DNA of 21,971 bases from a virus. Shown here one piece after another: positions 7,316 through 21,971 of this stretch. Location: positions 1 to 21,971 of the IMG/VR virus record IMGVR_UViG_3300020395_000125, one strand, 5' to 3'. Within the stretch, counting starts at the first letter, position 1. Each line of letters opens with the position of its first letter. Position numbers and translations under genes: made by a program. Below the pieces are notes generated by a model. It did not search any database and was not told where the DNA came from. It saw only the letters and a list, made by a program, of their open reading frames with translations.

Positions 7316-9016
7316 CTACCGATACTCCCACATAAATGATCTGTCACCATACTCATCTGTATTCCATTTTGAAGTTTCCTTGTCACTACCGTCCATCTCA
7401 AGTGACCAGACATCTCCTTTCTCATCTACCACAGTTTCTTCTTCATCTACACCGTTAAGAATAAAACCAAATGGTGCCATGTCTTGTTCTATCTGGTTTC
7501 TTTGCTCCTCATATATTCTCCGTCTTATGTCCTGATCAGTAAGCTCTTTAAAATATTCTTGCTGTACTAACCACGCAAAGATGACAAGACACATCACTAG
7601 GTCATCATTATATCCCTCGTCTGCCTCGAATGATTGCTTATTTTGTATGAATGTAGTCAACTCAGATACAATGTTATAGTCGTTTACAATTAGTTTATCA
7701 TCCTCTATCAGTGTCTTGAGGTTTGAGCATCCCTGTGCTTTCACAGTCTTACTCATCTTGACACCCATCTGCGTCTTACCTCCGCTAAATCCTGTACCAA
7801 CTATCTGTCCAGCTCTACCACGCATAGCACACATGAGTACATTCTCATACTCCACATCATAATGGAGCTGTGATGCGACTGCCTCTCCTATATCATTTAC
7901 TTCTATCAATACATATGCCATATTATATGCCTTTGCTACGTCTGATATAACATTAGGTAGTAACATAGGTCTAATATCATGGTCTCTATACTTTGCTACT
8001 AACTTCCATGGAGCTTGTGATATGTCTATCACGCAGAAAGCACTATAATCCTGTGCTAAACCCCGCGATATATCGCATGTAATTATATAATCTCTCTCAG
8101 GTATAGGATTTTCATATACATCTAGCGACCCATTAGTGCGGATTGGATCATCATATGTTAGTACACGTAACTTACTAGCAGTTATGAGTGTGTCAACAGA
8201 CCCTAAGAACTCACAGTCAAACTCTTGAGTAAACTGTCTGACTGACGTGTTGGCAATAGTAGTTTCTTTCCACTGAGCATCTCTACCTGGTACTTTTGAC
8301 CAGTGTACTTCAGTCCATATGTATCCGTTCCTACCTTTTTGTGCGTCAACCCACAACTTGTAGAAATGATTCATTCCGTTGGGGGTAGAAATAATGATGA
8401 CTTTCGTGGATTTACCAGAAGTAATAGTAGGATAAACGGAACTAAAGAATTGCTCCGCAATATGGTTAGGTATAAACGCAAACTCATCGAGGAAGATGAT
8501 GTTGAACGACATACCTCGAACAGCAGATGCTGAAGTAGATGCAGCGAGAATCTTTGATCCATTTTCTAACTCCATGCTACCCTTGTTCCATGCTATGATT
8601 CCCTGTTGCATCCAGAGTGGAAGTTGTTCATAGGCAAGTTGTAGTCTTCCGAGTAGATCTCTAGCAGTGGATAGCTTGTTTGCTAGGATACCTATATTCA
8701 CGTTGTCGTTGAACAGTGCATAATGTAAAAGGTAAGACACACACGTAGTGGACTTACCAGTCTGTCTAGGAAGTTTTGCTATATTAAACCTATTCTCGTG
8801 AAAGTTTCTAATTAATTCCTGTTGGAAGTCCCACATTTTAAATGGAACTATACCTTCATCAAGAGATATAATCTTGATGTAGTTCATAGCAAAGTATACG
8901 GGATCTGCCTTACACTTAAGGTATTCCTGTATTTGATCTTGGGTAAACTCAATTTCAGTTCCAACCTTTTTGAGGTTGGGGTTACCAAGATAGAAGTCTT
9001 GGGCAGATGAAGGCAT
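7316..9016 (-). CDS. 17: Terminase large subunit gp17 (packaging ATPase and nuclease)
   Basis: This is the DNA-packaging motor, an N-terminal ATPase joined to a C-terminal RNase H-fold nuclease that cuts the concatemer. In the 566 residues I see Walker A LPRQTGKST (82-90), Walker B IIFLDEFA (173-180, Asp177 Glu178) and the coupling motif IISTPNG (208-214). The nuclease acidic residues follow in TCDISRG (Asp315), LIEVND (Glu372) and YNDDLVM (Asp471/472). All key residues are present, so the protein should be active. The ATG at 9016 overlaps the stop of the tail-fibre-like gene (TAATG) with no Shine-Dalgarno, so its translation is probably coupled to that gene. Its partner gene 16 lies 4.9 kb upstream, whereas the two genes adjoin in T4. 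Confidence 0.98.
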   Translation of the reverse strand: MPSSAQDFYLGNPNLKKVGTEIEFTQDQIQEYLKCKADPVYFAMNYIKIISLDEGIVPFKMWDFQQELIRNFHENRFNIAKLPRQTGKSTTCVSYLLHYALFNDNVNIGILANKLSTARDLLGRLQLAYEQLPLWMQQGIIAWNKGSMELENGSKILAASTSASAVRGMSFNIIFLDEFAFIPNHIAEQFFSSVYPTITSGKSTKVIIISTPNGMNHFYKLWVDAQKGRNGYIWTEVHWSKVPGRDAQWKETTIANTSVRQFTQEFDCEFLGSVDTLITASKLRVLTYDDPIRTNGSLDVYENPIPERDYIITCDISRGLAQDYSAFCVIDISQAPWKLVAKYRDHDIRPMLLPNVISDVAKAYNMAYVLIEVNDIGEAVASQLHYDVEYENVLMCAMRGRAGQIVGTGFSGGKTQMGVKMSKTVKAQGCSNLKTLIEDDKLIVNDYNIVSELTTFIQNKQSFEADEGYNDDLVMCLVIFAWLVQQEYFKELTDQDIRRRIYEEQRNQIEQDMAPFGFILNGVDEEETVVDEKGDVWSLEMDGSDKETSKWNTDEYGDRSFMWEYR

Positions 9017-12000
9017 TAAGAAGAAGCTCTATATGTAAAGTCTAGGTATATCGCAGCCGTACCAATCGCACAGTTTCCTGCTGTGATGATACTTGATCTC
9101 TTATAATCAGCGTTACGTATCTGGAGTACCATCCACTGATTCTGAGATCCTGCGTGTGATACTACCATGTCTTTACTGTCATCTAAGAATATTGCTTGTC
9201 CTGTGTTCAAGAAGTGAGTTGCGGATGTATCCATTACTACTGTCTGTACTGGTGCGTCACTATGTGATAGTGCGGGTTGGAATGGAATTGGGAACTTAAG
9301 AACACCACCAATTAATGATGAGTCTTGAATGTTAACTGTAACCTTAGCATGTACATGTACCATTCTACCTACCTTAGTATAGTAACCAGTAGATGTGGTT
9401 GTCATACCAGCTCTGATTGTTGATGCGAACTCTGGTGTAGCATCATAGAAACCTTCTTCATAATGATCAAGGATTTGATATGTCTTACCAGCTAGTGATG
9501 TCTGGTTACTGAAGTCAATACCTTTGTCTTGCTGTAACTTATAGTGACCTGACTCAGTAATTCTTGCGGCTTCAGATAGAGTACCAGCTTGTACAGTATA
9601 GAACTTAAGTGCTCCATTTTCTGCTAAGTTTCCTGTACCAGTAACCTCAGCAAAGATACCCGCGTATGTAACGTTGGCATCATCATTAGCATTTCTACCT
9701 CTGAAGTCAATTCTACCTGGCTGATGTCCAACACCAATGGTACCTGATTTGTATAGTACAAGGTCAGGAGCAGTAGTAGAACTGTTGGTTGTGTTCTCAA
9801 TAATAATTTGGTCAGTTGTGTCATTACCTTTGACGTGTAACTGTCCTGCGGGTTCCTCTATATTAAGACCGACTAATCCACCACGGATTGTCATTGCCTT
9901 GACTTCTGATCCTGCGTCTATAACTGAGAAGTTTAGTAGTCCTCTCTCAGATCCCTCTGTATCAAAGTGAATCTTAGATTGAATCTTACCAAACTCTACG
10001 TCAGCACCGTTGGAAGTATTCCTACCGTGGAACTTAATAGCACCAAGTAAATCATTAGTAGCAGCACTAGCACTGTCTCTCTGTATAATAAGGTCAGGAC
10101 CTGCGTTTTCTGAAGCGTCATCTAATTCAACTGTAAGGGAAGTACCAGTAACTTTAGTAGCACCAGTTAATCCTATGTTTGTAGAACGTAGATCTAAGTT
10201 AGTGTCACCTACTTCTAGGTTAGGTGTACCACTGTTGTCTGCGTCAACTTCAAATGTTACTTTGCTTGTCTGTGTATTTCTCTTTCTGAATCCAATAGCA
10301 GCAACCTTAGAACCACCGTTGTTTCTAAAGTCAATATGTCCTAGGTCATTACCATCAGCAACAATACTATCAGAGGTAAAGTCAATACCACTGTGCTTGA
10401 ATGTGATGTTAGCAACTGTGTCTACTGTACCTACGTTGTCAGTGTTCTGTATAAGTAAGTTTCTTGTACCACTAGCACCGATAGTTACCTCACCAAAGGT
10501 AACGTCTGAGTTAGTAGCAACTGCCTGTCCAATAGAAATCGCACCTGATGCGGAATTATAAGTTACACCTGTACTACCACTAAGGTGTTGTCTAGTCTCT
10601 AGAGGACTAGGACCTGTGTAAGTTATAACACCTGACGCACTATCATAAGACATAGATCCGTCACCACCTAAGTCGGTGACTGAGACATGTGCTCTTACTT
10701 CAGCAGCACTAGGACCTGTGTATGTGAATACACCTGTGCTATTATCATATCCTAAACTACCATCTCCTCCTGCGTCTGTGACTGATACCGCAGCTCTTGC
10801 TCTAGTATTAGTAAAGAACTCATTAGTAGTTCCTTCTGCTACAGCATCTGTAGTAAACTCTGTGAAATCTATTGATAATGTTAGTGAGTCTGCTAAGTCA
10901 TTGTATGACTTGGATATACCAGTTCCACCTATGAGTAATGATGATACTCTATCGTCTACTCTCTCATTAGTATAGAATAAGTTTGTTGGTGAACTTGATG
11001 CTTCTTGGATATCATCTAGATCTAATGTGATGTCAGCACCACCATTAAATGATACACCGTTTATATTTCTTGCTGTCTGTAATGTTGTTGCTGAAGTTGC
11101 GTTACCCACAACTGCTGCTGTTACTTGGTTAAAGACTACATCGTCAGTTGTACCAACTGCCTGTCCTATGGCAACTGATCCAGACGCGATTGTAACTCCC
11201 GTCCCTCCCGAAAAATGTGCTCTAACTTCTGCGGAGCTAGGACCAGTATAGGTAACAACACCCGTTCCGCTGTCGTAACCGAGGGATCCATCACCTCCAG
11301 AGTCCGTGATAGAAATCGCAGATCTCGCTCTAGTGTTTGTGAAGTACACATTGGTTGGGGTTCCCGACTCCTGAACATTGTCAGTAACCAGTGTGATGTC
11401 CGATCCACCATCGAATGAAACGCCTGAGATATCTCTAGCAGTCTGTAAATTAGTTGCAGTGTCAGCATTACCAGTAAGTGCTCCTGTTATTGATGTAATG
11501 TTAGCAGCGTCACCATATATGTTCTGCCAACGTATGAGGTTGCTACCTAAATCATATGTACTATCAGCCGCAGGGAATACATGTTGATTAAACTCCCATG
11601 CGTCATTAGTATTTGACCAGAGCATACTGAGATCTGATGCTCCTTTTAAAATTATACCACCACCATCTGCTGTAGCATCAGTAGGTGAAGCAACAGTACC
11701 AAGCTCTAAGTTTTTATCATCGACTTGAACGGTAGTAGAATTCACCGTAGTGGTCGTCCCGTTAACTGTCAAGTCACCTGTGACTGTCAAGTCATTAGGC
11801 ATTGTGACATCATTTGGGAAAGCAAATTGTATATTATTATCGTCTACACGTGAACAAATTATTTGCTGTGAGTTACCTTTGAATGTTATATCATCTACAA
11901 CAGAGTATGATGATGTCAATCTAAATGTAACATCAGGAGATGTAGCTGTTATAGCACGGATATCATATTCTGTACCAATCGTTGATCCACCACCACCAAC

Positions 12001-12165
12001 GTCAAAGTTTCTGACGACACCATCTGTCCCCTTCAACTTCATGGTCAGGACGTTATTAGCAGTTGCCTCTAATACTACGTCACCATTTTGGAAAGGTGTT
12101 ATACTTGATGGGGGTCTGAGCAGATTGTTATCCTGTTCAGGTAATCTACGAATCGTCAGTGACAT
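9016..12165 (-). CDS. Large tail-fibre-like virion protein with internal repeats
   Basis: This 1049-residue protein is probably a tail or side fibre that reaches the host surface. The N-terminus (MSLTIRRLPEQDNNLLRPPS) may attach it to the particle. Residues 118-150 carry short TVTGDLTVNGTTTTVNSTTV repeats, typical of trimeric phage fibres. About 235-550 holds two LQTAR(D/N)I(S/N)GVSF units and three units of ISITDSGGDGSLGYD...YTGPS. A long beta-rich shaft (560-880) contains IDFRGRN-type units. The C-terminal 150 residues start at LDHYEEGFYDATPEF and include GYYTKVGRMVHVHAKVTVNI, a pattern common in the receptor-binding ends of marine phage fibres. The start has no Shine-Dalgarno but has a CTAAATA promoter 30 bases upstream. 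Fibre function is inferred from architecture; the receptor is unknown. Confidence 0.82.
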   Translation of the reverse strand: MSLTIRRLPEQDNNLLRPPSSITPFQNGDVVLEATANNVLTMKLKGTDGVVRNFDVGGGGSTIGTEYDIRAITATSPDVTFRLTSSYSVVDDITFKGNSQQIICSRVDDNNIQFAFPNDVTMPNDLTVTGDLTVNGTTTTVNSTTVQVDDKNLELGTVASPTDATADGGGIILKGASDLSMLWSNTNDAWEFNQHVFPAADSTYDLGSNLIRWQNIYGDAANITSITGALTGNADTATNLQTARDISGVSFDGGSDITLVTDNVQESGTPTNVYFTNTRARSAISITDSGGDGSLGYDSGTGVVTYTGPSSAEVRAHFSGGTGVTIASGSVAIGQAVGTTDDVVFNQVTAAVVGNATSATTLQTARNINGVSFNGGADITLDLDDIQEASSSPTNLFYTNERVDDRVSSLLIGGTGISKSYNDLADSLTLSIDFTEFTTDAVAEGTTNEFFTNTRARAAVSVTDAGGDGSLGYDNSTGVFTYTGPSAAEVRAHVSVTDLGGDGSMSYDSASGVITYTGPSPLETRQHLSGSTGVTYNSASGAISIGQAVATNSDVTFGEVTIGASGTRNLLIQNTDNVGTVDTVANITFKHSGIDFTSDSIVADGNDLGHIDFRNNGGSKVAAIGFRKRNTQTSKVTFEVDADNSGTPNLEVGDTNLDLRSTNIGLTGATKVTGTSLTVELDDASENAGPDLIIQRDSASAATNDLLGAIKFHGRNTSNGADVEFGKIQSKIHFDTEGSERGLLNFSVIDAGSEVKAMTIRGGLVGLNIEEPAGQLHVKGNDTTDQIIIENTTNSSTTAPDLVLYKSGTIGVGHQPGRIDFRGRNANDDANVTYAGIFAEVTGTGNLAENGALKFYTVQAGTLSEAARITESGHYKLQQDKGIDFSNQTSLAGKTYQILDHYEEGFYDATPEFASTIRAGMTTTSTGYYTKVGRMVHVHAKVTVNIQDSSLIGGVLKFPIPFQPALSHSDAPVQTVVMDTSATHFLNTGQAIFLDDSKDMVVSHAGSQNQWMVLQIRNADYKRSSIITAGNCAIGTAAIYLDFTYRASS
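10564..11340 (-). repeat. Three ~40-residue repeat units inside the tail-fibre-like gene
   Basis: Three copies encode (S/A)(I/V)S(I/V)TD-x-GGDGS(L/M)-x-YD...YTGPS-x-x-E-x-R-x-H. They lie at 11340-11206 (residues 276-320), 10809-10684 (453-494) and 10683-10564 (495-534). The last two are in direct tandem; the first is separated by about 130 residues. A second repeat, LQTAR(D/N)I(S/N)GVSF(D/N)GG(S/A)DITL, occurs before unit 1 and between units 1 and 2. The first copy has visibly more G and C at third positions than the others. Confidence 0.85.
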
Positions 12166-13898: not shown

Positions 13899-14294
13899 TT
13901 ATTTATCCTTGGAAGCATTCTTCAACATCTTCTGTAAATCTGCTGTGCTACCAACAAATAAAGCGTTGTTGACTGTGGAAGGTCCTTTCTTTTTCTCTTC
14001 CTTTACTTCTTTGGTTGTCTTCTGAAGTGCCATGAGTTTATCAGCAACGTCACCGACGTGTTTGATTAACTGTCCTGCTACTTCATATGCTCTGGGATGA
14101 TCACTTCCCTGTGCTACATCTAAAGCACCATCGACTGCCTCTTGTCCTTTCTCTATAAGAGAATAAAGATTGGATCTAGCATACTCATGATCATCAGTTA
14201 TCTGATCATCAGTATTCTGTATGGCTCTTGTCTTTTTGGGTTTAGGTTCAGAGGTGTCAAACGCCTTCTCTAAACCACCGAAATTGTTATCCAT
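13899..14294 (-). CDS. 16: Terminase small subunit gp16
   Basis: The small terminase subunit recognises concatemeric phage DNA and stimulates the gp17 ATPase; in T4 it forms rings. This 131-residue protein (T4: 164) starts MDNNFGGLEKAFDTSEP, has a basic segment (PKPKKTRA) and a central helical region typical of gp16 (YARSNLYSLIEKGQEAVDGA, then PRAYEVAGQLIKHVGDVADK). It ends with a Lys-rich linker and an NALFVGSTADLQKMLK motif, which resembles the short C-terminal conserved segment in other T4-like gp16 proteins. The ATG at 14294 overlaps the gene 15 stop by eight bases without a Shine-Dalgarno, so translation is probably coupled. Identification rests on the central motif and the 15-16 order. 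Large subunit gene 17 is 4.9 kb downstream. Confidence 0.9.
   Translation of the reverse strand: MDNNFGGLEKAFDTSEPKPKKTRAIQNTDDQITDDHEYARSNLYSLIEKGQEAVDGALDVAQGSDHPRAYEVAGQLIKHVGDVADKLMALQKTTKEVKEEKKKGPSTVNNALFVGSTADLQKMLKNASKDK
13900..13907 (-). promoter_or_regulatory. T4-type late promoter (GATAAATA) before the 180-aa gene
   Basis: The minus strand reads GATAAATA, a match to NATAAATA, across the last codons and stop of gene 16 (TAA at 13901-13899). It is 24 bases before the ATG at 13876. It would transcribe the accessory insert separately from the neck genes. Confidence 0.7.
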
Positions 14295-15285
14295 AGAAAG
14301 AAGTCATTTCGTTGAATCCGAAGTCATCATCACTCTCAAGGAGTTCTGTGTCAGCGGTTGTAATAATATCTATAACTGAACCACTCGCATGCTCAGATTT
14401 AGTTGTAGCATTCTGACCACGAAGTACAGTAATAGATACGTCATCAGGTTTTGTCTTAACCTTCATAACTTCATTGTTAATCTCAATGTAGTCACCTATG
14501 TTGAATACAGTTGAGTCTGTGACAGGTAAGGTTGCGACTGACTTATTGACCTGTGCTGTCAATGTTAGACCAGCTCCATCATTATCCTTATCACGGAGAG
14601 CAGTAGGTTCTACTTGATATGTAGAACGACGTACTGGAACTTTTGGAGTACCAGTATCCATATGAACTTTTGCTTTCTTAATTGGTTTGCCACCCTGTGT
14701 AGGTCCAAAGATGTATGCTTTGGCAGTAAAGGTACAGTCAATAGTAGTGAGTTTACGTTGATCGAAGTTACCTTCATACTCATCTGAATAGTTTATACTG
14801 TTCAGAACTATTGGTACGTCACGGTACTCATTAATATCATCTAGAATTTTAATACTGACACTGTATGCGGGTTGGAAAATAGGAACTATCTGTTCTATGA
14901 TCTCCAATGCCTCATCATTTGTCTTAGATAAAATAGAAAAACTAAAGTCTAGATTATATGGCACGGGTGTATATACTTTTCTCGCACTCTTTCCATCTTT
15001 AACGTAGTCAGTAGTTATAGGACTTAACTTTCTACTACTGTCATATGATATACCAGTCAATTCAAATGATACTCTAGGTAGAGTGATAGCAACCTTCTTG
15101 TTTAATTCTGGTTGTCCTTCTAGTCTAGCTAAAAACTTTTGCTTAGGACCGTAAGCAAGAGGTACTTTCATTCTCTGATAGGTTGTACCACCTGTCTCTT
15201 TCCTAACTTCTATATTGTTGAATAATGTACCGAAAGCGATAACGCACTTTCTGATCACCTTATTATAAGTGTATGCACCTAACAT
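14287..15285 (-). CDS. 15: Tail terminator / proximal sheath stabilizer gp15
   Basis: In T4, gp15 caps the finished tail tube and sheath and provides the surface that binds the head neck. The 332-residue protein has the family start (MLGAYTYNKVIRKCVIAFGT), the VPLAYGPKQKFLARLEG block (41-57) and ITLPRVSFELTGISYDSSRK (67-86). It continues with TPVPYNLDFSFSILSKTNDE (106-125) and VPIFQPAYSVSIKI (134-147), all clear gp15 signatures. It exceeds T4 gp15 (272 aa) through a C-terminal module, about 235-310, that includes FNIGDYIEINNEVMKV and ITVLRGQNATT. This beta module recurs in other cyanophage structural proteins. The start at 15285 follows the gene 14 stop by one base (TAACATG) and has an AGGAA Shine-Dalgarno. 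Confidence 0.95.
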   Translation of the reverse strand: MLGAYTYNKVIRKCVIAFGTLFNNIEVRKETGGTTYQRMKVPLAYGPKQKFLARLEGQPELNKKVAITLPRVSFELTGISYDSSRKLSPITTDYVKDGKSARKVYTPVPYNLDFSFSILSKTNDEALEIIEQIVPIFQPAYSVSIKILDDINEYRDVPIVLNSINYSDEYEGNFDQRKLTTIDCTFTAKAYIFGPTQGGKPIKKAKVHMDTGTPKVPVRRSTYQVEPTALRDKDNDGAGLTLTAQVNKSVATLPVTDSTVFNIGDYIEINNEVMKVKTKPDDVSITVLRGQNATTKSEHASGSVIDIITTADTELLESDDDFGFNEMTSFYG

Positions 15286-16621: not shown

Positions 16622-17427
16622 CCGATCATATCCATTGGGGGCATTTCATACTTAGTCAACATCTCATCTTCTATCCTGTCTAACTCAGATTGTGCCTGTT
16701 GATATATCTCATCACCATTCATAGTGATACCGCCAGGTAACTGAGCACCTTTGAACTTACTAAGGTTCTGACCCCACTGTCTCTTGATGAGTTGTGTGGT
16801 ATATCTCTTAAGGAAGATGTCATCATATAGTGTAGTAAATGATGAAGGATCCAATGCTCTGTAAGCATCAAAAACTATAAAGTCTCCATCGTTTACATCA
16901 GTTCTAAAATCAAGATCCATGTATAATCTGTCTCCTCTACTCTGGAATCTTATTTGCTTCTGTCCTTCTAGTAACCAGTATATATCTTCTAGTCTTCTGT
17001 TTACCATTTCATATGTAAGAATCTCAGTCTGAGTTAGATCCCAGAGATCATTCAATCTCCACTGGTATCTGACATCAAATAGGTTAGTAGTATTCTTAGA
17101 TGTGAAATCAAATATCTTAATGACTGAGGTGACATGCTCAGGCATGGTGATGAAGTTATTCTGCTCAAGGAAGTTTGCTTGTCTAGCACCCACCTGTGTC
17201 ACTGTGGTAGTCGTGTCAGTAGTCATAGCATCTATTGTTGCCTGATCAAACTGATACTTTAGGAACGTTCTAATATAACCATCAGTAGATCTCTCTTGGA
17301 AAAACTGCAAAGCATCATCAATCAGATCATCTATCTGATCATCATCTACGTTTATTTCTAGGACTGGAGCTCCTAGTTTTCTCAAAGCATACTCTGCTAG
17401 AGTTGATTTACTACTTGGTTTTGCCAT
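16618..17427 (-). CDS. 13: Neck protein gp13
   Basis: This neck protein binds the portal after packaging and helps connect head and tail. The 269 residues (T4: 309) contain the conserved gp13 start (KSTLAEYALRKLGAPVLEI, then VDDDQIDDLIDDALQFFQE), the FLEQNNFITMPEHVTSVIKI block (85-104) and the YQWRLNDLWDLTQTEILTYE segment. A C-terminal motif covers RQWGQNLSKFKGAQLPGGI with the following MNGDEIYQQAQ, which is almost invariant in cyanophages. Its ATG overlaps the stop of the giant upstream gene (TAATG), and it is followed at once by gene 14 (four-base overlap), so it is translated from a longer polycistronic late mRNA. No promoter is visible just upstream. Confidence 0.96.
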   Translation of the reverse strand: MAKPSSKSTLAEYALRKLGAPVLEINVDDDQIDDLIDDALQFFQERSTDGYIRTFLKYQFDQATIDAMTTDTTTTVTQVGARQANFLEQNNFITMPEHVTSVIKIFDFTSKNTTNLFDVRYQWRLNDLWDLTQTEILTYEMVNRRLEDIYWLLEGQKQIRFQSRGDRLYMDLDFRTDVNDGDFIVFDAYRALDPSSFTTLYDDIFLKRYTTQLIKRQWGQNLSKFKGAQLPGGITMNGDEIYQQAQSELDRIEDEMLTKYEMPPMDMIG

Positions 17428-20400
17428 TAGACTGTATCGACGTTGAATCTCACCCTTACATAATATGTAGTTGTAGGTAACAGTGTAACGTCACCTGGTA
17501 ATGTATATGACAGTAAGTTGGTAGAGTTTCCTAGGGATTGATGTACAATAGTAGTGAATGTATCTGCCTGTGAGAACTGCCAGTCAGTAGAGTTATGTCC
17601 ATAACCATTCTTAAACTCTGGTGTTAGAACATTGATTGTAGGATTAAATGCGGGAGTAATAGTTTGTACCTCTGGTTGATCTACAACAGGTGTAGAGAAC
17701 TGTACAGCAGTTGAATAATTACTTGATAATCCTGCGTTATCTTTATACTTAACTTGAACTGAGTAAGTTGTTTGGAAGTCAAGTGTACCAGCTGGTACTG
17801 TAAATGTAGTTAAGTTACCAGTATCACCCTGTGATAAGTCAGGAACTGTGATAGCAGCAGTGTCATATATGACTGCGTTATCAGATGTTCTCTTGATTAA
17901 CCACCAAGATGCTGAGTGTGTTGACCCTGCGTACTGTGATACAAATGCGTTTGCTGTAAATGTAGGTTGTCTATTAAATGTTAAGTTAGTTGTTGGGTCT
18001 TCATTGACAGTGATTCCAGTAGATGCTTCTACAAATTCAGACTCATTTACAGTTATAGTAGCAGACTGAGATGTAATTGATATAGCATTACTATTAGACA
18101 ATACACAACGATACTCATTGTTTAATGTTGGGAATGGTTGTGTGACTGTAGTATATGACGCAGATGTCGCACCATTTATATTCGCCCAGTTTCCACCACT
18201 ATCAGTTGACTTCTGCCACTGGTAGTTGATTGATCCAGATGTGATAGCAGCAGTGATACTAAATGTTGCTGTCTGTCCTTCAATGACTGTTTGTGCCTGT
18301 GGTTGCTGAGATATAGAGATAACTCTAAGAACTGTTTGTACAGCAAAGGTTGATACTAGATCATTTTGAGCACCTACTAGACTGAGTGTACACTTAAATC
18401 TGTCATCATTATCATCAGCAAATACTAAAGCAGGAGTGGTATAGGTAGCTCCTACAGCACCTGGTATAGTATTATAGTCTACGCCATTGTCAGATTTACT
18501 CCACTGATAAGTATGTGAACCACTAGATGTATTACCCGCTACAGTATATGATGATGTTCCTCCTTCATTACCTGTTGCGTTAGATGGTTGAGCAGTAATG
18601 TTATGAGTCCTGTAGACAGTTAACAATGCGGCTGAGGTGAATGCATCAGCGTCAGCACCAATAGCCGATAGCTTACAACGGAACCTATCATTGTGGTTAT
18701 CAGCGTATGTCAATGTCCCTGTGTTGTAAGAAGGACTTGTTGCTCCACCTATATCAGTATATTGATCAGTCACAGTCATCGCTGCTCCTTGACCTGTGTG
18801 GAAATGACACCAATAGTATAGAGTTGCAGGAGCACTACTAGGTACTGTCCACTCTACTCTTCTAGTACTAGCAGCTACGAATCCACTAACATATCCAGAC
18901 ATAGTGACAGTAGCACCATCTAACTTATATACTATCCCATCACTATAATGTCCGTTACCATTATGATCTCCGTCAGCACCTGTACTGAGCATCAATGGAT
19001 GATGTACACCACCGTAGGTAGCATTGGATGAAGCATCTTGGTTGAAAGTATATGTAGCATTCTTCTCAAATTCTAGAACCGCTTTCTCTACTCCATCAAA
19101 ATAGAATACACCAGTTGATTGTCCTGCGTTTGTATCTACACCTATTGTGACTGCGACTTCAGCATCTCCATCAGATTTCTGCCATTGATATGTTACTGAC
19201 GGAGCATGGCTAGACCAGATAGAGTTGTATAATTCTGGGTCAGCAGCTGTCTCTTCCTTAGCAGAAGCACCACCACCTGAAGGTGTTGTCCAGTTACCAA
19301 CTCCAAAGGAAGAATTAAGTAATGCTGTGATTGCTTGAGTTTGTACTGAACCTACTGCTGTGAATGTAGCGGTCTCTCCTTCATCCTTAGTTGCGTCATT
19401 TGGATCAGAAACTACAGATACAGTAACAGTTTCTACCTGTAAAGTAGCAGCATTAGAGAATGTATTGCTAGCACCAGCCGCTGTTATTAAACATCTATAT
19501 TGATATTCATCAAACTGAGCTGTAAGTGTAGGTGTTGTATATGATGCTGAGGTTGCTCCTCCAATACTTGAGAAGTTATTACCATCATCAAGTGATAACT
19601 GCCATTGATAGTTAATGTCAGCACTGTCACCATCAGAAAGACTGGCAGCAACTGTAAAGGATCCAGTTCCACCTACTGCCCCTGTGTCATTTTGTGGATG
19701 TGTATCGACTGTTATAGTTCTTGTAACTGTTAACTGAGCACTATTTGATACTACCTCACTAGCACCTGAAGCGTTGACTCTACATCTGAAGTAGTCTCCA
19801 TTGTCAGCTGCGAATGATGCGGGAGGTGTACCACCACTATCATATGTGGTTGCTGTAGTAGTATATGCTGCATTAGTAGCACCTGGTATTTGATGCCATA
19901 CAGAGTCGTCTTCTGATTTATCCCATGCGTATGTAAGTGATGCTGTATCAGCAGTAGAAGCAGTTATATTAAATGTAGCAGCAGCTGGTGATACTATGGA
20001 TGTGCTAGCGGGATGTGCCGATATTGATACAACTCTGGTTACAGTCAGTGTAGCTGTATTACTTGTTGTACTAGAAGCGGACGTATTAGAATCACAGACG
20101 CATCGGTATTGCCATCCGTTATATGAGTAGTCATCATCTACAGTAAGTGTATCTGTTGTTTCTCCACTATGTCCTGCTAGACTACTAATACTTGTCCAAG
20201 CACCACCTGTACTATATTGCCACTGGTATGTGATAGTAGATGAGTCTGATACAGTAGCGTTTAAAGGACCAAACTGTGCGTTGGTTCCTGCTCCCGCCTC
20301 TATTGATACATCGGAAGGTTGATCTCCAATCGTAACAACAACACCTGTACCTATAGTATGGAAATTATAATTTCGTGCTTCACCAGAACTATCTTCTGTG

Positions 20401-21971
20401 ACTATGATGTCAAAGAATGTATCCTGATAAGATGATGTAACTGTACCTGATAGTACACCACTCGTTGTATTAAATGTTAATCCTGTATTTGATATGTTGT
20501 CACCTGAAAGAGTATATGTCTCTCCTGCGTTAAATGTTTCGTTAGCATAGCTCTTAAACTCATCAATACCTATGTCTTTACTGATAGCACTGTTGTGAGC
20601 AAATCCGTCACCACCTATTTTACCTGTGGTTACTAGATTACCAGTACCAGTTCCTTGAGTAGTCTTGATATAGAATGGATGACTAGATCCTGCTGTAGTA
20701 TCGAATACTAGAATGTCACCTACTGTAGCAGCAATACCAACATCATCACCACTTTGTCCTGCTGAGGAATTTGTCTGAACAGTAATAGTACCGTACATAT
20801 TGTTGTGAGCTGTACACTGATAGTAGTATGTGCCAGGTGTTACGCCAGTTGTGATCCACTTAACAGTGCCAGATGCTGATGCTCCACCACCTGTATATGT
20901 ACCTGTTGATACCTGATTAGATGAACCAGTTCCTTGTACAGTCTTGAAAACAGTTGGGTGACTGCTACCCGCATTCATATTAAAGTTTATTGTATCCCCA
21001 ACTTGTACAGTAATAGCAGGATCATTACCACTGACTGAACCAGATCTATCAGAACCAGATACGATGTAGTCTTGACTACCACTAGCAGTGACAGCAAAGT
21101 TATAGGTATTGGTTATAAGGTTTACATTTTTTTCTGTTAAAGTATAGTCGCTACTACCAGACGCTGTTACGTCCCAATATCTCTTGGCAGTACCACCTGA
21201 TCCAGATAACGCAATGGAACCATACATGTCATTATGAGCAGAACATTGATAGTAATATGTACCAGCTGTGACTCCTGTTGTATCCCAATATATTCTTCCG
21301 TTAGTGACACCTTGACCTCCTGTAGAACTTATATTACCGTTATAGAACCATGTGATAGTCTTAGAAATGTATCTAGTAAACAGTCCTCTGACCTTACTAA
21401 TTAAGGCACCTGTCTGACTATAGTCAAAGTCAACACCTGTGTCTACTGGTATTTGTTTGACGGTACGACCTGTATGTCCTGCTTCCTCTGAGTCTAACTC
21501 AGCATATAATGTGACGTTACCAAATGAAGGTCCGTCAGTTCCCTCATGTGTGTCAGATATTACGCAAGCATAGTTATTATCTCCACCACCTGTAGCATTA
21601 CCTGTAGCACTGTTGACTACAGTTATCTCGATATAGTTATTAGCAGCATCCTGTCCTGTGATACCCCACCATGTCCCAGACTCAACATACAGGTTGATAC
21701 CACCTAATACAAGACTTGTATCGGCTACTCTTATCTGTATCTTCTTTCCAATCTTGTTCAAGAAGGCAGATGAGTATAGAGATGGATAGTATATCCTAAT
21801 AACGTTACTACCATTGCTAACTACAAATGGGTCAGTAGGTAACTTATATTCATGAGCTGTATTAGCAGGGTACGCTGTTGTACTTGTAGCAGCAAAGTTG
21901 CCAGGATCTCCTGATCCTCTGATCCAGTTTTTACATAAGACTGGTAGTGTACCTGTACTATGTGTATAACT
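17427..21971 (-). CDS. Giant virion protein with cupredoxin-like, Ig-like and FN3-like domains (5' end outside window)
   Basis: At least 1514 residues are visible. The frame is open to the window edge, and the first possible start inside (TTG at 21761) is not convincing, so the real start lies upstream. In order I see a unique beta-rich part (21971-21360) and a half cupredoxin-like module (21359-21201). A linker with two VTASGS(S/Q)DY units, a full cupredoxin-like module (21044-20772) and a front-half module (20744-20592) follow. Next come a cadherin/Ig-type segment with an NTTSGVLSGTVT core, six Ig-like domains (20342-18042, the fourth carrying a nested cupredoxin-like module) and FN3-like C-terminal domains ending VRVRFNVDTV. 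Placement before gene 13 equals T4 wac, so I infer a fibre, whisker or adhesin on the virion. Ig and cupredoxin calls rest on motifs only. Confidence 0.85.
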   Translation of the reverse strand, partial: SYTHSTGTLPVLCKNWIRGSGDPGNFAATSTTAYPANTAHEYKLPTDPFVVSNGSNVIRIYYPSLYSSAFLNKIGKKIQIRVADTSLVLGGINLYVESGTWWGITGQDAANNYIEITVVNSATGNATGGGDNNYACVISDTHEGTDGPSFGNVTLYAELDSEEAGHTGRTVKQIPVDTGVDFDYSQTGALISKVRGLFTRYISKTITWFYNGNISSTGGQGVTNGRIYWDTTGVTAGTYYYQCSAHNDMYGSIALSGSGGTAKRYWDVTASGSSDYTLTEKNVNLITNTYNFAVTASGSQDYIVSGSDRSGSVSGNDPAITVQVGDTINFNMNAGSSHPTVFKTVQGTGSSNQVSTGTYTGGGASASGTVKWITTGVTPGTYYYQCTAHNNMYGTITVQTNSSAGQSGDDVGIAATVGDILVFDTTAGSSHPFYIKTTQGTGTGNLVTTGKIGGDGFAHNSAISKDIGIDEFKSYANETFNAGETYTLSGDNISNTGLTFNTTSGVLSGTVTSSYQDTFFDIIVTEDSSGEARNYNFHTIGTGVVVTIGDQPSDVSIEAGAGTNAQFGPLNATVSDSSTITYQWQYSTGGAWTSISSLAGHSGETTDTLTVDDDYSYNGWQYRCVCDSNTSASSTTSNTATLTVTRVVSISAHPASTSIVSPAAATFNITASTADTASLTYAWDKSEDDSVWHQIPGATNAAYTTTATTYDSGGTPPASFAADNGDYFRCRVNASGASEVVSNSAQLTVTRTITVDTHPQNDTGAVGGTGSFTVAASLSDGDSADINYQWQLSLDDGNNFSSIGGATSASYTTPTLTAQFDEYQYRCLITAAGASNTFSNAATLQVETVTVSVVSDPNDATKDEGETATFTAVGSVQTQAITALLNSSFGVGNWTTPSGGGASAKEETAADPELYNSIWSSHAPSVTYQWQKSDGDAEVAVTIGVDTNAGQSTGVFYFDGVEKAVLEFEKNATYTFNQDASSNATYGGVHHPLMLSTGADGDHNGNGHYSDGIVYKLDGATVTMSGYVSGFVAASTRRVEWTVPSSAPATLYYWCHFHTGQGAAMTVTDQYTDIGGATSPSYNTGTLTYADNHNDRFRCKLSAIGADADAFTSAALLTVYRTHNITAQPSNATGNEGGTSSYTVAGNTSSGSHTYQWSKSDNGVDYNTIPGAVGATYTTPALVFADDNDDRFKCTLSLVGAQNDLVSTFAVQTVLRVISISQQPQAQTVIEGQTATFSITAAITSGSINYQWQKSTDSGGNWANINGATSASYTTVTQPFPTLNNEYRCVLSNSNAISITSQSATITVNESEFVEASTGITVNEDPTTNLTFNRQPTFTANAFVSQYAGSTHSASWWLIKRTSDNAVIYDTAAITVPDLSQGDTGNLTTFTVPAGTLDFQTTYSVQVKYKDNAGLSSNYSTAVQFSTPVVDQPEVQTITPAFNPTINVLTPEFKNGYGHNSTDWQFSQADTFTTIVHQSLGNSTNLLSYTLPGDVTLLPTTTYYVRVRFNVDTV
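18042..20342 (-). repeat. Six tandem Ig-like domains in the giant virion protein
   Basis: Six units share a start S(I/V)xxxP followed by TF or SF, then YQWQ/YAWD/YQWS with K/L/Y-S, (I/N)-G-A-T-x-A-x-YTT, a (D/N)xxx(F/Y)RC strand, and a closing A-x-L-T-V strand. Boundaries are about 20342-20040, 20039-19725, 19724-19431, 19430-18615, 18614-18324 and 18323-18042. The Trp of strand C and the Y/F-x-C of strand F are kept, while the strand B Cys is replaced, so the usual Ig disulfide is absent. Unit four is nearly three times longer because of two insertions. Such Ig units in phage virions often bind surface sugars; that role is inferred. Confidence 0.85.
18762..19163 (-). other. Cupredoxin-like module nested in Ig-like domain four
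   Basis: Between the YQWQKSDGD strand and the IGGATSPSYNT strand of Ig unit four lies about 134 residues. It contains GVFYFDGVEKAVLEF, ATYTFNQD, GGVHHPLML (His near 18999-19004), VEWTVPSSAPATLYYWCHFH and GQGAAMTV. Candidate ligands are His, Cys (18809-18807), His (18800-18798) and Met (18779-18777), with Cys-x2-His-x6-Met spacing. The longer loop and unusual insert make this copy less certain. Confidence 0.55.
20592..20744 (-). other. N-terminal half of a cupredoxin-like module
   Basis: The segment IAATVGDILVFDTTAGSSHP, then FYIKTTQGTGTGNLVTTG, repeats the front half of the complete module, with His at 20681-20679. The Cys-His-Met loop does not follow; the chain passes into DEFKSYANETF and a cadherin-like segment. 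It looks like a truncated copy. Confidence 0.6.
20772..21044 (-). other. Cupredoxin-like module with complete type 1 copper ligand set
   Basis: The module runs from GNDPAITVQVGDTINFNMNA through GSSHPTVFKT to GTYYYQCTAHNNMYGTITV. The candidate ligands are His (codon 20960-20958), Cys (20816-20814), His (20807-20805) and Met (20798-20796). Cys-x2-His-x2-Met is the loop spacing of amicyanin. The VGD-x-(I/L)-x-F strand before the first His and the G-T-YYYQC strand also fit the fold. Copper binding itself is inferred. Confidence 0.7.
21201..21359 (-). other. C-terminal half of a cupredoxin-like module
   Basis: This segment encodes ITWFYNG, then GVTAGTYYYQCSAHNDMYG and SIALSG, with Cys (21245-21243), His (21236-21234) and Met (21227-21225) in the same Cys-x2-His-x2-Met loop as the next module. 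The front strand with the SHP ligand is missing upstream, so this copy lacks one candidate ligand. Confidence 0.6.

Follow-up and report, generated by a model that had tools for sequence, protein, structure and literature searches.

Type 1 copper sites, which bind copper tightly, are known from electron carriers and from oxidases, and the axial ligand of stellacyanin is a Gln. Our literature search, which had most subscription journals outside its reach, returned no report of cupredoxin or plastocyanin-like domains, or of type 1 copper sites, in phage particles. Here we analyze a stretch of viral DNA, IMG/VR record IMGVR_UViG_3300020395_000125 from position 1 to 21,971 (21,971 nucleotides in all, hereafter the window), in which one long minus-strand gene encodes modules resembling cupredoxins. 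An earlier note, made from the DNA letters alone, had pointed to a type 1 copper pattern in a phage protein at 20592-21359. We favor the reading, to which we assign a probability of roughly 0.6, that these are genuine blue-copper modules, one permuted pair included, with a structural role in a subtilisin-like virion protein. Residue numbers refer to the truncated protein of 1514 residues, the start of the frame lying beyond the window edge.

17427 to 21971, minus strand: host gene of the modules, open for 1514 codons and exiting the window at its 5' side
20775 to 21113, minus strand: module 2, predicted complete cupredoxin (residues 287-399), from Pfam Copper-bind, PDB matches, and an AlphaFold2 (AF2) model with predicted local distance difference test scores (pLDDT) mostly >90
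20958 to 20960, 20814 to 20816, 20805 to 20807, and 20796 to 20798, minus strand: putative module 2 ligands His338, Cys386, His389, and Met392, respectively

Module 2 is almost certainly a cupredoxin fold with a type 1 ligand set. It displays a complete His...Cys-x2-His-x2-Met set, with VGDTINF ahead of the first His and GTYYYQC ahead of the ligand loop. This set and its flanking strands, as the earlier note had read them, are present in frame 17427-21971 of the minus strand with support from Pfam and phmmer. Residues 316-399 score 37 bits (E value 4.8e-9) with Pfam family PF00127 (Copper-bind), whose cut-off is 21.2. In the phmmer alignment of the module with Prochlorothrix plastocyanin (1b3i; E value 4e-6), His, Cys, His, and Met fall on the ligands of that protein, and on this basis the four side chains are predicted to converge in one type 1 site. 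A chance match is ruled out by the Pfam and PDB E values. The profile of the module has 47 PDB matches (E values up to 0.01), comprising plastocyanin, amicyanin, rusticyanin, auracyanin, pseudoazurin, and copper nitrite reductase, so that all are blue-copper or multicopper proteins save one COX2. Copper-bind was likewise matched by 13/13 diverse modules at E<0.1. The AF2 models display a Greek-key β-sandwich, and Foldseek paired them with plastocyanin, amicyanin, rusticyanin, and laccases at probabilities of 0.97-1.00, reaching 1.00 for the first three; by target, template modeling (TM) scores were 0.55-0.64 for plastocyanin and 0.52-0.59 for amicyanin. The amicyanin loop spacing and the plastocyanin/amicyanin type of cupredoxin proposed in the earlier note thus agree with the Copper-bind, PDB, and fold matches, and the fold comparison for which it had called pairs the predicted fold with both proteins. 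Membership of either family proper was considered and rejected: the score was 31.9 bits for plastocyanin (TIGR02656), below the NCBI equivalog cut-off of 87.85, and 15.6 bits for amicyanin (TIGR02657), below a cut-off of 110.2 and with only the loop spacing in common. Module 2 is therefore a cupredoxin domain, but neither a plastocyanin nor an amicyanin. We consider it very likely that the purified module would bind copper.

Module 2 is flanked by the following features.

21204 to 21335, minus strand: module 1, C-terminal half of a cupredoxin (residues 213-256), from a hidden Markov model (HMM) with 53 bits to the C-half
21243 to 21245, 21234 to 21236, and 21225 to 21227, minus strand: putative module 1 ligands Cys243, His246, and Met249, respectively
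20607 to 20765, minus strand: module 3, N-terminal half of a cupredoxin (residues 403-455), from the HMM with 50 bits to the N-half
20679 to 20681, minus strand: putative module 3 ligand His431
21114 to 21203, minus strand: linker with a strand like the first strands of module 2 (RYWDVTASGSSDYTL, compare YNFAVTASGSQDYIV), from sequence comparison and predicted strands
21336 to 21419, minus strand: first part of a host domain (KTITW...), in a loop of which the cupredoxin block sits
20325 to 20606, minus strand: second part of this host domain, resuming at GFAHNSAISKDIGI, from the empty-site comparison

The two half copies listed in the earlier note are indeed where it had placed them, but modeling and ligand conservation make it probable that they are no relics: modules 1 and 3 would together form one cupredoxin, circularly permuted around module 2. 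When the block was modeled with its host domain, module 1 had an AF2 pLDDT of 77-93 and module 3 one of 71-86. Trimming the block to residues 213-455 gave a mean pLDDT of 90.9 (92-96 in module 1 and ∼91-95 in module 3), and the trimmed model contains every cupredoxin strand once per domain. Because half a β-sandwich alone is unlikely to be modeled so confidently, the halves appear to form one domain. The Cys, His, and Met of module 1 and the His-Pro of module 3 are invariant in 15/15 homologues (48-93% identity), and so are residues R52, W54, V56, T57, and Y64 of the linker (15 homologues), for which the trimmed model predicts strands E51-58 and E64-68. We propose that the linker, through RYWDVTASGSSDYTL, supplies the first strands of the permuted cupredoxin. 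The host domain is uninterrupted in orthologues L124 and L125 (KTITWHRAAGDISSGGDGFDNGESVNLQL) and in L004, which amounts to an empty site. Comparison with it places the cupredoxin block in a single host-domain loop and shows the halves to be broken at the corresponding loop (VSTG-x3-G-x-G). The second part of the host domain was modeled poorly (AF2 pLDDT mostly <60) and resembles, by eye only, a putative immunoglobulin (Ig) repeat of the He_PIG type. If the permuted pair is real, its ligands come from two stretches ∼180 residues apart; we know of no earlier natural circularly permuted cupredoxin.

Alignments indicate that a full module, where one occurs, almost always retains its ligands. Across 13 diverse modules, His, Cys, His, and Met show no variation. 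A search with an iterated profile yielded hundreds of modules. In the 86 that are non-redundant at 70%, conservation is highest for Cys and for both His (0.92 each); Met scores 0.87 and is replaced mostly by Gln. Complete modules display HCHM in 60/74 cases and HCHQ in 7/74 (67/74 together), and in cellular relatives the four positions are conserved in 46/46 (His), 47/47 (Cys), 47/47 (His), and 45/46 (Met). The loci had been fetched with a Cys-x2-His pattern, and the count was repeated on modules that do not match it, 30 of 37 of which display HCHM or HCHQ. As an independent check, we used orthologues fetched through a C-terminal region unrelated to cupredoxins (27 non-redundant, including the protease Ser motif); at least one intact ligand set was found in 24/27. 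The pattern-free modules and these independently fetched orthologues both counter search-pattern bias as the cause of the conservation. Both His are lost together above expectation (Fisher p 0.001, or 0.01 for pattern-free modules, relatedness being uncorrected in both values). The earlier note had named free variation of the four residues among homologues as evidence against a copper site, and they do not vary freely. A separate group designated YCYY (L065, L070, L078, and L082, with modules near residues 1088-1240) has Tyr in place of both His and Met but retains Cys, as might be expected of a site remodeled to do without metal or to serve a different end.

Beyond the earlier note, we found a fourth module (18768-19154) and a subtilisin-like protease domain that is cut off in the window. 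The former is nested in an Ig-like domain, as follows.

18768 to 19154, minus strand: module 4, cupredoxin-like (residues 940-1068), in a loop of the Ig-like domain, from the HMM with 59 bits
18807 to 18809, 18798 to 18800, and 18789 to 18791, minus strand: putative module 4 ligands Cys1055, His1058, and Gln1061, respectively, to which His990 or His991 is added
about 19155 to 19409, minus strand: first part of the Ig-like domain holding module 4
18612 to 18767, minus strand: second part of this domain, matching an uninterrupted Ig-like repeat in L118 and L004

The Ig-like domain lacks the module 4 insert in L118, L190, and L004. All 9/9 relatives of module 4 in the nr80 set are HCHQ, with Gln in the Met position, and L322 and L323 have Met, not Gln, at this axial site. 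Modules 1, 3, and 4 were recognized only via the module's own profile, module 2 alone passing the Pfam threshold. Since a PDB search with module 4 alone gave no match, its site depends on the module profile and is the weakest of three. Overall, about three type 1 copper sites are predicted in the protein, namely in module 2, the permuted pair, and module 4. The module complement of this gene is a mosaic (region 18612-19409 of the window), with four insertion points filled or empty across orthologues.

Judging from its longer relatives, the window gene encodes the C-terminal portion of a phage protein of ∼2080 residues that is of the subtilisin-like (peptidase S8) type. Full-length relatives in IMG/VR (L015, L118, L190, and L125) have ∼1830-2086 amino acids (aa) and an N-terminal peptidase S8, a domain that in this genome lies outside the window, whose edge cuts off the N terminus of the protein. 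Pfam PF00082 (Peptidase_S8) was scored in orthologues L118, L190, and L125. It was not scored in a Pfam search of the close relative L015, which we nevertheless count as S8-bearing because a stretch of 583 residues that contains the Asp, His, and Ser motifs is 69% identical to L125. In the longer relatives, the missing front consists of an N-terminal region, a degenerate or intact cupredoxin-type module, and the subtilisin-like protease domain, and the cupredoxin modules therefore belong to the Ig-rich C-terminal part of a phage subtilase. The structural phage protein of the earlier note is thus better described as the tail of such a subtilase than as an anonymous structural protein, although its place on the virion, which that note had taken as given, is only probable. 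Proteolysis is the predicted activity of the S8 part.

The window derives from a T4-like marine phage resembling cyanophages, with the Prochlorococcus phages P-HM1, P-HM2, and MED4-213 as nearest isolates (74-75% DNA identity in the tail sheath, terminase, and portal genes). The host gene lies directly upstream of the neck gene gp13, which it overlaps, and gp14 and gp15 follow gp13; the same gene order is found in the three isolates. Homologous modules are annotated in tail fiber, baseplate, and structural/virion proteins. From the gene order and these annotations, the host protein is probably located on the virion. Sullivan et al. 2010 (PMC3037559) give S8 peptidase T4-GC518 as common to P-HM1 and P-HM2. 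In the text consulted, a cyanophage proteome paper, which treats S-SM1, S-PM2, and Syn9, does not cover P-HM-type proteins. Elsewhere in the window, a large tail-fiber-like gene (9016-12165) adjoins the terminase gene, and a gp15 homologue (14287-15285) has a C-terminal extension matching tail-fiber PHROGs.

Module relatives are widespread in marine phage contigs, with at least 502 among the first 600 IMG/VR pattern matches. Modules are also carried by isolates, among them many cyanophages and phages of Pelagibacter and Methylophilales. The best 80 matches in cellular genomes come nearly all from marine Bacteroidetes, and in the cases read the module is at the extreme C terminus of lipoprotein-like surface proteins. 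In marine Flavobacteriaceae (L192-L271), these are surface lipoproteins with InlB-type, leucine-rich (LRR), DUF285, or Ig-like repeats, sometimes with several paralogues per genome. A strict search for S8 motifs was positive in 23/71 non-redundant module proteins versus 1/231 other long frames, many of the 71 being orthologous to one another and hence not independent fusion events; Pfam confirms additional S8 fusions that the strict motif missed. This recurrent fusion suggests a functional link between cupredoxin modules and S8. The fusion is seen in several unlike phage architectures (L002, L003, L008, L010, L122, and the window's orthologues). Cupredoxin modules also occur alongside YHYH domains (PF14240; L077:1879-11802 and L006:5041-6411), one protein of 3308 residues having four YHYH stretches and five cupredoxin modules. 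An orthologue with the permuted arrangement is found in L201, a metagenome-assembled genome (MAG) labeled Euryarchaeota; the contig in question is probably of phage origin and ended up in an archaeal bin.

In the mechanism that we propose, module 2 would form a complete type 1 copper site, the permuted cupredoxin would combine His431 from one half with Cys243, His246, and Met249 from the other, and module 4 would provide the third site, with Gln instead of Met as axial ligand, the arrangement known from stellacyanin. Copper, taken up by the particle after lysis or from copper-rich compartments of the host, would lock the ligand loop and stiffen the exposed β-sandwich. The stiffened sandwich would be a surface/adhesion module positioning the protease, like the neighboring Ig-like domains, with which the modules would be interchangeable, serving stability or attachment. 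We lean slightly toward such a structural/adhesion role over electron transfer, while a redox role is possible given the retained axial Met or Gln. A more speculative suggestion, which we regard as doubtful, is that several functional type 1 sites, the permuted cupredoxin included, are arrayed along the virion protease and that their copper state controls particle stability or activity. Should the modules contain copper, then phage stability, attachment, and the function of the protease could be influenced by the copper in sea water.

Several observations weigh against blue-copper modules with a structural role on the virion. The predicted TM score (pTM) of the trimmed model is 0.62, so that the mutual orientation of its two domains is uncertain, and the Foldseek root mean square deviations are large, mostly 4-8 Å, which probably reflects a two-domain query with one domain permuted. 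The ligands might also be conserved for the sake of a different soft metal or of a redox-active thiol. The predicted virion location is drawn only from gene order and homologous annotations. Moreover, the window's clade has a degenerate N-terminal module (WYNVSN replacing YYC..H..M) and no module is detectable in 3/27 orthologues, which indicates that the modules are dispensable and copper not indispensable. One could also read the half copies as decaying leftovers of unequal recombination instead of one domain, since a full module with a half module on either side is the expected outcome of unequal exchange within a tandem array, and the halves do match overlapping profile ranges (34-90 and 4-67). 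This overlap, however, falls on host-domain sequence, and decay is difficult to reconcile with ligands invariant in both halves across the 15 homologues and with two halves modeled at >90 pLDDT that provide each cupredoxin strand once; we consider decay unlikely. It is less likely still that the modules are metal-free Ig-like sandwiches for adhesion, with a motif inherited from a copper-binding ancestor and without present function. Such sandwiches would account for modules that lie among Ig-like domains, are gained and lost freely, and have lost the site in some cases, e.g. the N-terminal HNTM/HNYY modules and the YCYY group. Yet in phage and cellular modules alike, no columns are better conserved than the ligands, while the remainder varies, and losses tend to be concerted, involving both His together.

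Electron transfer seems about as improbable as metal-free modules. In that reading, the virion protease or a partner would exploit the type 1 sites to carry out redox reactions on the host surface, for example by exchanging electrons with plastocyanin-type chains of the host or by oxidizing copper(I) or surface thiols. In its favor, merely holding metal does not require an axial Met, yet most modules retain it or carry Gln instead, which is an established variant at type 1 sites, and the nearest folds are electron carriers; against this, the gene has no redox partner domain, and the same module caps flavobacterial surface lipoproteins (LRR, InlB-type, Ig-like), which points to a surface role. 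We give even less credence to scavenging, which the earlier note had listed as an option, or sequestration of copper from sea water or the lysed host, be it to shield the particle or to deliver copper. The protein is predicted to have several high-affinity sites, but one to three sites make for a tiny capacity, and copper-handling genes were not seen in the window. Blue-copper modules with a structural role thus remain our preferred reading.

Among known systems, plastocyanin and amicyanin (PF00127) are alike in fold, in the His...Cys-x2-His-x2-Met set with amicyanin loop spacing, and in the G-T-Y-x-Y-x-C strand before the loop. They are free carriers, whereas the present module is part of a phage protein of 2000 residues, and the first His is in an HP pair in the phage module but in a PH pair in plastocyanin/amicyanin. 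The C-terminal domain of copper nitrite reductase (6hbe), the best single PDB match of the profile (loop CSIHPYM, i.e. C-x2-H-x2-M), is likewise a cupredoxin appended to a larger enzyme; the phage protein has no nitrite reductase core, its enzyme part being a subtilase. Closer to the window, the protein upstream of gp13 in P-HM1, P-HM2, and MED4-213 (T4-GC 519, "contains PF07686") is encoded by an orthologous gene in the same position and also has cupredoxin modules with full ligand sets, but at other insertion points, and it lacks the permuted pair and module 4. The S8 proteins of Synechococcus phages (ACG-2014e/h/i/j and S-H9-1) similarly combine peptidase S8 with a homologous C-terminal cupredoxin, and those of ACG-2014e and ACG-2014h superpose at 1.1 Å over 113-115 columns, the best among predicted viral structures; they differ in size (∼670-970 aa), in having one module, and in genomic place. 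Finally, the surface lipoproteins of marine flavobacteria carry at the C terminus a module that reaches 61% identity, has near-invariant ligands, and is recognized by Pfam Copper-bind, but these are cellular proteins in which a single module, joined to LRR, InlB-type, or Ig-like repeats, stands at the very end.

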